DNA of 64,000 bases, taken from NCBI RefSeq assembly GCF_000023985.1, contig NC_013156.1:1290363-1354362 (forward strand). The letters run 5' to 3'. The notes under the pieces are model-generated. The model was given only the letters and a program-made list of their open reading frames with translations. It had not been told where the DNA came from and did not search any database. Source of the stretch: Methanocaldococcus fervens AG86 (GTDB taxonomy: Archaea > AGJL01 > Methanococci > Methanococcales > Methanocaldococcaceae). Position numbers and translations under genes: made by a program. Positions 23,097 through 46,741 of this stretch are shown here, one piece after another. Positions within the stretch are counted from its first letter, which is position 1; every line of letters begins with the position of its first letter.

Positions 23097-24173
23097 ATGA
23101 TATATCATCCAAGACCTTCACCAATAGCCGCTGCCATGTATCAACTTAGGGATTTAGGGGTTGATGCTATAATTTTACACGGTCCAAGTGGATGCTGCTT
23201 TAGAACAGCAAGATTATTGGAGTTAGATGGTGTCAGAGTATTTACAAGTAATATAGATGAAAACGCCATTGTTTTTGGAGCTTCAGAAAATTTAAAAAGA
23301 GCTTTGGATTATGCAATCAACTATTTAAAAAATGAGTTGAAGAAAGAAAAGCCAATGATTGGCATTGTTGGGACGTGTGCAAGTATGATTATTGGTGAAG
23401 ATTTATGGGAATTTGTAAATGACGATAGGGCCATAATCATCCCAGTTGAAGTGCATAGTGGTAGTGGAGACAACACCGTTGGTGCAATAAAAGCTATGGA
23501 ATCAGCTTTAAAATTGGGAATAATCGATGAAAAAGAATTTGAAAGGCAGAAGTTTTTATTAAAGAAGGCAACAGAAATTGAAAAAACGAGAGGTATGGCA
23601 AAGAAAGAGTATATAAAGCCAACGTATGATGATGATTTAAATGAAGCCATAAAAGCTTTAAAAGGTTTGAAAAAGAAAAATGCAAAAATAGCCTGTGTTT
23701 TAAATGCTAAAAAAGAAACTGCCTATTTGTTTGCTCATCCTTTAATTGTGTTGAATAAGTATTTTAATTGCGTAAATATAGCCAATTTAGATACAAATAA
23801 AGGACTTCCAAAAATAAGAAGGGATGCAAAAAATATATTAAATAGATTTAAGGCAGATTATATTACAGGAGGTTTAGATGAATATCCAATAACTGGAGAG
23901 AAAGCGGTTGAGATATTAAATGATTTAGATGTTGATGCTGTTGTTGTCTCTGGCGTTCCTCATGCTTTACCAATAGAAAAAATAGATAAAGATGTAGTAA
24001 AAATTGGTATAAGTGATGGGCCAAGAACTTATCATCCAATAAAGGAGATTTACAATTATGCAATTGTTGAGCTGGATGCCCACGCAAAGGTTTTAGGAAA
24101 AAGAGATATTGTTAAATCGAGATTCGGGGAGATTTTAGATTATACGCTAAGAGACGCCGTTCAGCCCCTCTAA
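23097..24173 (+). CDS. cfbD: Ni-sirohydrochlorin a,c-diamide reductive cyclase subunit CfbD
   Basis: A 358-aa NifD/BchN-like protein of coenzyme F430 synthesis. With the NifH-like CfbC it reduces and cyclises Ni-sirohydrochlorin a,c-diamide. Family features are the start YHPRPSPIAAAMYQLRDLG, the cluster-binding GPSGCCFRTARLL, GIVGTCASMIIGED and IIPVEVHSGSGDN. ATG at 23097 follows GAGGTGGGTAA. The C-terminus (FGEILDYTLRDAVQPL) is odd: the last codons are written again, diverged, at 24297-24332 after a structured repeat, so the present 3' end may have been supplied by an insertion. Confidence 0.9.
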   Translation: MIYHPRPSPIAAAMYQLRDLGVDAIILHGPSGCCFRTARLLELDGVRVFTSNIDENAIVFGASENLKRALDYAINYLKNELKKEKPMIGIVGTCASMIIGEDLWEFVNDDRAIIIPVEVHSGSGDNTVGAIKAMESALKLGIIDEKEFERQKFLLKKATEIEKTRGMAKKEYIKPTYDDDLNEAIKALKGLKKKNAKIACVLNAKKETAYLFAHPLIVLNKYFNCVNIANLDTNKGLPKIRRDAKNILNRFKADYITGGLDEYPITGEKAVEILNDLDVDAVVVSGVPHALPIEKIDKDVVKIGISDGPRTYHPIKEIYNYAIVELDAHAKVLGKRDIVKSRFGEILDYTLRDAVQPL

Positions 24174-24296
24174 ATTAAGAGGCATTATGAAGGGTTGAAA
24201 GCCCTTCCTTAATGTATCCGTTTTGATGAAATGGAAAGCCTTTGCTTTCCAGCTATGAAAATCCATGATTTTCATTCAACTTTTACTAAAAGGTTG
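24167..24296 (+). repeat. Structured interspersed repeat, copy 1 (inserted at cfbD 3' end)
   Basis: A run of consecutive hairpins: CCTCT/AGAGG (24167-24182); GCATTA+GAAGGG paired with CCCTTC+TAATGT (about 24183-24216); TGGAAAGC/GCTTTCCA (about 24232-24252); ATGAAAATC/GATTTTCAT (about 24255-24275); and a CAAC-TTTTACTAAAAGGTTG end. The blocks AATTAAGAGGCATT, TAATG(T/C)ATCCGTTTTGAT and TAAAAGGTTG recur at 46646-46715, so this belongs to a dispersed family. The base of the second stem is the same in both copies while the upper part differs, which points to selection on structure. It encodes no protein. Confidence 0.75.
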
Positions 24297-24332
24297 TTCG
24301 GGGAAATCTTAGACTATGCGTTGAAAGAATGA
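24297..24332 (+). pseudogene. Displaced duplicate of the cfbD 3' end
   Basis: Translates as FGEILDYALKE then stop, and matches the end of cfbD (FGEILDYTLRD, from base 24123) exactly 174 bases upstream. The two stretches differ mostly at synonymous positions (GAG/GAA, ATT/ATC, GAT/GAC, CTA/TTG) plus T/A and R/K changes. It has no start codon or RBS and is too short to be a gene. It looks like the original cfbD end, pushed away when the repeat inserted. Confidence 0.7.
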
Positions 24333-24347
24333 TAATGTGGTGACAAA

Positions 24348-25298
24348 ATGGACAAACCATGGGTAGAGAAGTATAGACCAAAAACATTAGATGAGATTGT
24401 TGGACAAGATGAAATTGTAAAAAGATTAAAAAAATATGTTGAAAAAAAGAGTATGCCACATTTGTTATTTAGCGGACCTCCAGGGGTTGGAAAAACCACC
24501 GCTGCCTTGTGTTTAGCAAGGGACTTGTTTGGAGAAAATTGGAGAGAGAACTTTTTAGAGCTAAACGCCAGCGATGAAAGGGGGATAGATGTTATTAGAA
24601 CAAAAGTAAAGGATTTTGCAAGAACTAAGCCGATTGGAGATGTGCCATTTAAAATCATATTCTTAGATGAGAGTGATGCATTAACCCCAGACGCGCAGAA
24701 CGCTTTAAGAAGAACTATGGAAAAATATTCAGATGTTTGTAGATTTATTTTGAGCTGTAATTACCCAAGTAAAATTATTCCTCCAATTCAATCAAGATGT
24801 GCTATATTTAGGTTTTCACCATTAAAGAAAGAAGATATAGCTAAAAAATTAAAAGAGATTGCTGAGAAAGAAGGATTAAAATTGACTGAGAGTGGTTTAG
24901 AGGCAATAATTTATGTTTCAGAAGGGGATATGAGGAAGGCAATAAATGTTTTGCAAACAGCAGCAGCTTTAAGTGAGGTTATAGATGATGAGATTGTTTA
25001 TAAAGTATCTTCAAGGGCAAGACCTGAAGAAGTTAAGAAGATGATGGAGTTAGCCTTAGAAGGAAAGTTTGTAGAGGCGAGAGATTTGCTATACAAGTTA
25101 ATGGTTGAGTGGGGAATGAGTGGAGAGGATATATTGAACCAAATGTTTAGGGAAATAAACAACTTAGATATTGATGAGAGGAAGAAGGTTGAGTTAGCAG
25201 ATGCCATTGGTGAAACTGACTTTAGAATAGTTGAAGGAGCTAATGAGAGAATTCAGTTGAGTGCTTTATTAGCTAAGATGGCACTAATGGGAAAATAA
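24348..25298 (+). CDS. rfcS: Replication factor C small subunit (intein-free)
   Basis: A 316-aa AAA+ clamp-loader subunit that loads PCNA on primed DNA. RFC boxes are visible: [17 protein letters not shown], Walker [21 protein letters not shown], Walker [12 protein letters not shown] (DESD rather than DEAD), sensor 1 [20 protein letters not shown] and the SRC motif. The M. jannaschii gene is interrupted by three inteins; here the protein is continuous at all those places. ATG at 24348 follows GGTGACAAA. Confidence 0.96.
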
Positions 25299-46645: not shown

Positions 46646-46715
46646 AAATTAAGAGGCATTGCCGAGCGTAGCGAGGTAATGCATCCGTTTTGATCAACCT
46701 TTTAGTAAAAGGTTG
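46646..46715 (+). repeat. Structured interspersed repeat, copy 2
   Basis: Shares with copy 1 (24167-24296) the blocks AATTAAGAGGCATT, TAATGCATCCGTTTTGAT and TAAAAGGTTG. The first stem is GCATTGCC/GGTAATGC with a GAGCGTAGCGA loop, and CAACCTTTT-AGT-AAAAGGTTG is a perfect 9-bp hairpin at 46695-46715. Between copies, the stem base is kept while its upper part is exchanged and two further hairpins are present only in copy 1. Confidence 0.7.
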
Positions 46716-46741
46716 TATAAAAAAAGCTCGGAGGTTTTAAA

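Follow-up and report, generated by a model that had tools for sequence, protein, structure and literature searches.

Coding-like duplicates of gene edges flank a dispersed palindromic repeat in Methanocaldococcus fervens and other Methanococcales

Integrative elements that use gene 3′ ends as attachment sites leave the target gene intact and place a second copy of the gene end at their far end, and the Rickettsia palindromic elements (RPE) insert in frame within genes and add codons to their hosts. The hairpin repeat found at the end of a cfbD-like gene in Methanocaldococcus fervens AG86 resembles the first of these in the intact gene, the second copy at the far end, and the possibility of synonymous differences between copies, but it belongs to elements of only 30–270 bp that occur at many target genes, including gene starts, and with which no integrase was identified. 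It resembles the RPE in adding codons (i.e., the DAVQPL tail of CfbD), whereas insertion here occurs at gene edges with a duplication rather than internally and in frame. In Yersinia, YPAL/RU-2 is a small palindromic mobile element with internal inverted repeats, target duplications of 3–26 bp, and both empty and filled sites (PMC2229807). The palindromic form, the internal inverted repeats, the variable length of the duplications, and the occurrence of empty and filled sites are common to both systems; unlike in YPAL/RU-2, the duplications described here are longer (24–70 bp or more), the copies are coding-like, and they occur in an archaeal host.

Palindromic repeats with coding potential have been described from M. 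jannaschii (Suyama, Lathe and Bork 2005, FEBS Lett 579:5281, as cited in PMC2229807 and PMC2996958) and, as portrayed in these citing papers, they are like the present repeat in genus, palindromic form, dispersal, and occasional position within coding sequence. Likened through these citing descriptions, the element analyzed here is likely the same family. Dispersed palindromic repeats, as expected of that family, are present in genome G003 (14 matches to the model described below), which is presumed to be M. jannaschii; the other presumed identities are M. vulcanius (G013), M. bathoardescens (G001), strain FS406-22 (G006), and Methanotorris igneus (G035). To our knowledge, neither gene-end duplication nor synonymous-biased divergence of copies has been described for the Suyama repeats, and no description of either was found for these archaeal repeats in the literature searched, subscription papers aside.

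The window, a stretch of 64,000 nucleotides, comes from the M. fervens AG86 genome (1,507,251 bases in total, with a main contig of 1,485,061 bases), and all features of the cfbD locus lie on its plus strand. The cfbD-like gene (23097..24173) is an open reading frame of 358 amino acids with orthologues in 14 of the 14 genus genomes. Its end runs into a hairpin repeat element of ~140 bp (24156..24296), recognized by folding, by genome repeat matches, and by a covariance model. The element consists of a first hairpin identified by folding (24182..24215, GCATTATGAAGGGTTGAAAGCCCTTCCTTAATG) and a conserved two-hairpin-plus-tail unit (24221..24296), which matches covariance model R1 with E = 5.7e-15, the site being itself a member of the seed alignment. 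Its folding is unusually favorable on both strands (z −4.2 and −3.6). A known RNA family was rejected as its identity, as no Rfam covariance model matched positions 23900–24600 of the window even at E up to 1. Downstream is an rfcS-like open reading frame of 316 amino acids (24348..25298). It is free of an intein in M. fervens, and relatives at loci L010, L011, L018, L025, and L026 carry an intein-like insertion in rfcS right after GPPGVGK.

The codons at the end of cfbD occur twice, with the hairpin repeat between them. An attached copy, FGEILDYTLR, occupies 24124..24155 (TTCGGGGAGATTTTAGATTATACGCTAAGAGA, approximately the last 32 nt being duplicated) as defined by alignment of both copies, and a loose copy, FGEILDYALKE-stop, occupies 24297..24332, as defined by the same alignment and by the cfbD ends of relatives; it comprises TTCGGGGAAATCTTAGACTATGCGTTGAAAGA at 24297–24328 followed by A and a TGA stop. 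The arrangement had been recognized in the preliminary description, in which the attached copy was placed at 24123 and the spacing given as 174 bp; the start is 24124 and the spacing 173 bp. The two copies are identical at 25 of 32 positions, and the seven differences are all transitions and synonymous in four of the six changed codons. The full end of the gene reads FGEILDYTLR-DAVQPL-stop, in which the tail codons (24153–24173, DAVQPL and the stop) are encoded by the repeat. The left end of the element is diffuse, such that TAAGAGAC at ~24149 may already be element, and the right end is sharp: the covariance model places the end of the tail at 24296 and the loose copy starts exactly one base past it, as at most duplicated sites.

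Among relatives, most cfbD ends read FGEILDYALK/E, FGEILEHELK, or FGEILDYALR. A single normal end without the repeat is found in G006 (YALK-stop), G003 (YALE-stop), and G001 (YALE-stop), and these ends, FGEILDYALK-stop and FGEILDYALE-stop, match the loose FGEILDYALKE-stop of M. fervens, the stop included. The closest relative, G011, has a single end with an altered tail (YMLSKI-stop), which is possibly a scar of the element. The proposal that the repeat is an insertion is upheld: none of these repeat-free relatives carries two copies, and the downstream match is present at other cfbD ends. G013 carries its own, different repeat in the cfbD end together with a loose copy (DIVKSRFGEILDYALE and a stop), the duplication being identical at 41 of 42 positions. 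Within M. fervens, both copies share TTC GGG and TTA, which are mostly absent from the relatives checked, and therefore the copies look sister to each other. Divergence in the last 27 bp of cfbD is not clearly higher than in the rest of the gene, and thus this site supports duplication strongly and exchange weakly.

Dozens of partial matches to the repeat occur in the M. fervens genome and in five relatives. In an alignment of 29 copies of the two-hairpin-plus-tail unit, 9 of 15 pairs show compensatory changes, and model R1, built from the alignment of this unit, was used for genome searches. Within the genus, M. fervens (G000) has 15 matches, G001 18, G006 21, G011 10, and G013 two, besides the 14 of G003; two other genera have 16 (G035), four (G033), and one (G034), and at the cut-off there were no matches in 19 genomes of two further genera. 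The window itself holds a second copy of the family at 46646–46723 (locus L057, GTTTTGATCAACCTTTTAGTAAAAGGTTG type). The elements hold no integrase-sized gene and have the tail hairpin on one side only. A SINE-like origin by reverse transcription, which would produce a fixed 3′ end and a diffuse 5′ end, was rejected because RVT_1 had no match in the 14 genus genomes, while three control genomes did match.

The analysis covered sequence surrounding the repeat copies and the corresponding orthologous positions. Duplications were sought at 81 model matches in nine Methanococcales genomes by comparing two segments at each match, namely 70 bases downstream of the tail and 420 bases upstream of the unit. 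A duplication with a score of at least 30 was detected at 31 of the 81 repeat copies, compared with 0.9% of mismatched locus pairs (a control that includes some orthologous loci) and 3 of 300 random positions drawn from the same loci; a detectable duplication was absent at 50 copies. The true number is somewhat below 31, since the high scores of L069, L070, L114, and L117 stem from CRISPR or internal repeats, and the counts are not fully independent because several occupied sites are orthologous across species. The expectation that other copies of the repeat would be flanked by duplicated gene ends is nonetheless borne out. In most cases the base directly following the tail is the first of the duplicate, which is 24 to ~75 bp long and specific to each locus, matching the local gene, with more than 20 different target genes involved. 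Gene ends are duplicated at atpD-like, argF-like, and rpl39e-like genes (names that reflect a reading of the predicted peptide ends), gene starts at L107, L056, L115, L066, and L111, overlapping gene junctions at L102, L088/L085, and L084, and a tRNA-like 3′ end at L082. At some loci the duplicate agrees with the local target at every position (L073, 34/34; L061, 25/25). As 3′ ends, starts, and junctions are all affected, each with its own local sequence, the pattern is one of target duplication and not of a fixed 3′-end replacement, and the earlier comparison to elements carrying a portable replacement 3′ end for one target gene is not supported in that form.

Orthologous sites were found both empty and occupied. 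The atpD-like gene has one copy of its end in G000, G011, and G005 and two in G001, G003, G006, G007, and G013, and in four of these last five genomes the site holds only a minimal hairpin of ~28 nt plus a linker. Unoccupied sites at which the gene end is single were found for the argF-like gene in G006, G000, and G001 and for the rpl39e-like gene in G013. Empty and occupied orthologous sites and direct duplication of the target are both hallmarks of MITE-like elements, and insertion of the element with duplication of its target is well supported. In single-gene cases the affected gene and the tail are on opposite sides of the element (15/15), and in the remainder seven duplications serve both sides and six are of unassigned side. 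An absolute polarity was rejected, as comparison to orthologues indicates that a duplication can serve both of its neighboring genes (L100, L088, and L063). The polarity would follow if the left end favored AT-rich gaps between genes.

The claim that the copies at cfbD differ mainly at synonymous sites applies to the family as a whole. Of the 87 codons that changed across 23 loci or insertions, 70 still specify the original residue, among them TTA to CTC and TCA to AGT; at L086 both copies read LKPQSFLIWNAI despite such a serine codon switch (TCA to AGT). Counted as changes in 29 coding pairs, 100 are synonymous and 21 nonsynonymous. A neutral loose copy opposite a constrained attached copy would be expected to give ~41% synonymous and ~59% nonsynonymous changes, and the observed nonsynonymous share is 17% (P ~1e-20 against neutral decay, before correction for shared ancestry). 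Such P values are optimistic, because the pairs were hand-picked from detected duplications and a few orthologous pairs were kept, but the effect is large. Pure neutral target duplication was rejected on the basis of this silent bias. Read in the frame of its gene, L127 has two changed codons, one of them silent. Some loose copies have decayed, as at L094, which has lost its start codon. Across species, loose copies keep their stop codon and peptide. For the atpD-like gene, synonymous and nonsynonymous differences between species are 8.5 and 2.1 for the loose copies and 8.4 and 1.2 for the functional copies. The atpD-like loose copies are closer to their own attached copy than to others (rank 6 of 120), and copies within a genome share species-specific ends (ETV, EAV, or EAL). 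Between G007 and G013, one mismatch is found in ~375 bp of gene body, compared with 7/75 in the attached copy and ~10/75 in the loose copy.

Further patterns that fit recombination accompany the repeats. A 5′UTR variant (L066/L162) is in the attached copy in G003 and in the loose copy in G006, and the same sites are patchily occupied across species. At L056/L072, an element orthologous between M. fervens and G011, divergence between the two genomes falls from 10–19% to a few percent at a point ~150 bp ahead of the element and does not rise again across the following gene, and this drop is a recombination breakpoint beside the element.

The reading that appears probable is that a mobile palindromic element makes a long target duplication, and that through later recombination the gene can end in one copy or the other. 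The element, which is dispersed, structured, and non-coding, would have moved among hyperthermophilic Methanococcales, and its insertion at a gene boundary duplicates ~24–75 bp of adjacent target, with the duplicate following the sharp tail hairpin. A disturbed gene, or a pair of overlapping genes, remains whole because adjacent target is duplicated on insertion. Later exchange of the copies may proceed when the direct repeats recombine and excise the element, when it re-inserts, by gene conversion, or with the alleles of other strains. Each copy would thus function in the gene for part of the time, and the changes that build up would be mostly synonymous, as the substitution patterns suggest. 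At cfbD, the attached copy would have run into the repeat and gained a new, repeat-encoded CfbD tail, and the original end would have been left beside rfcS. Exchange with diverged lineages must be assumed in this scheme, because local conversion that protected the loose copy would also erase the synonymous differences. Weighing against the scheme are the 50 copies with no duplication detected, the decay at L094, and the lack of a clear excess of divergence at the end of cfbD; in addition, neither excision products nor circles were observed, and a mobilizing enzyme was not found. Alternation of both copies as gene ends through recombination is favored here from sequence comparison, and would account for the silent bias, the similarity within genomes, the variation focused on the copies, the swapped 5′UTR variant, the patchy occupancy, and the L056/L072 breakpoint. 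As a tentative extension, a hairpin as small as ~30 nt could act like an integrative element that carries or borrows a gene end as portable homology and cycles across the orthologous genes of different species, with two synonymously recoded ends persisting side by side.

It is possible, but unlikely, that the logic of integrative elements applies more strictly and the element brings its own att-like copy of the gene end, supplying a new end while the native end remains as the loose copy. Mostly synonymous differences, as between alleles, would fit such an origin, as would the constant side on which the intact gene lies (15 single-gene cases against none), the patchy occupancy, and the breakpoint beside L056/L072. 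An imported end is difficult to reconcile with more than 20 different target genes, gene starts included, with the lack of any integrase identified with elements of this size, and with the sister-like cfbD copies of M. fervens. It is improbable that the loose copy results from an ordinary long target-site duplication and has merely decayed since insertion. Site-specific duplicates of 24–70 bp, the perfect identity at L073 and L061, the sharp element end, the empty sites of relatives, and the decay at L094 are all consistent with this, but simple decay predicts a nonsynonymous share of ~59%, against the 17% observed, and does not explain the stop codons and peptides retained by loose copies across species. 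More improbable still is that the loose copy is conserved in place for signals of the downstream gene (e.g., a ribosome site or an overlapping stop and start). The duplications at L102, L088/L085/L080, L084, and L107 do span overlapping or abutting genes, with both copies used, but at the atpD-like site the next gene starts ~60 bp past the loose copy and the silent bias still holds, and such signals would not protect codon meaning. Finally, chance similarity at cfbD has a negligible probability: the alignment score of 29 is borderline alone (scores of at least 28 occur in 1.6% of mismatched locus pairs and at 4 of 300 random positions, i.e., ~1–2% of controls), but the pair is firm because the loose copy matches the real, single cfbD ends of relatives, stop included, and starts at the element tail, in keeping with the family-wide pattern.

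Duplication of the gene edge on insertion lets the repeat spread in a compact genome with overlapping genes while none is broken. Under the favored alternation of copies, the coding-like second copies would be fossils of recombination that document exchange among vent archaea directly and in testable form. Should recombination be active at these sites, they would offer a natural system in which to study how short direct repeats around hairpins undergo excision and conversion in a hyperthermophile.

Several observations concern the structure of the elements themselves. At the atpD-like site, four genomes have one short hairpin (L129–L132), and in G003 (L099) this hairpin is expanded by two more hairpin pairs inside it, which suggests growth by internal insertion. 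In the L056/L072 element, the tip of the first hairpin is inverted between the two genomes (CTGAGCGTAGCGAAG compared with its reverse complement) while the flanks match, a configuration that resembles the outcome of strand switching at hairpin tips. At L086, L062, and L111, in G003, G006, and G011, the hairpin repeats contain or adjoin another small element, which is distinct from them and has the inverted ends TAACCAATTATCAAAG...CTTTGATAATTGGTTA. Further, at L069 and L070 in G011 the hairpin repeats adjoin CRISPR-like arrays (ATTTCCATACCGAAACGGTCTGATTTTAAC).
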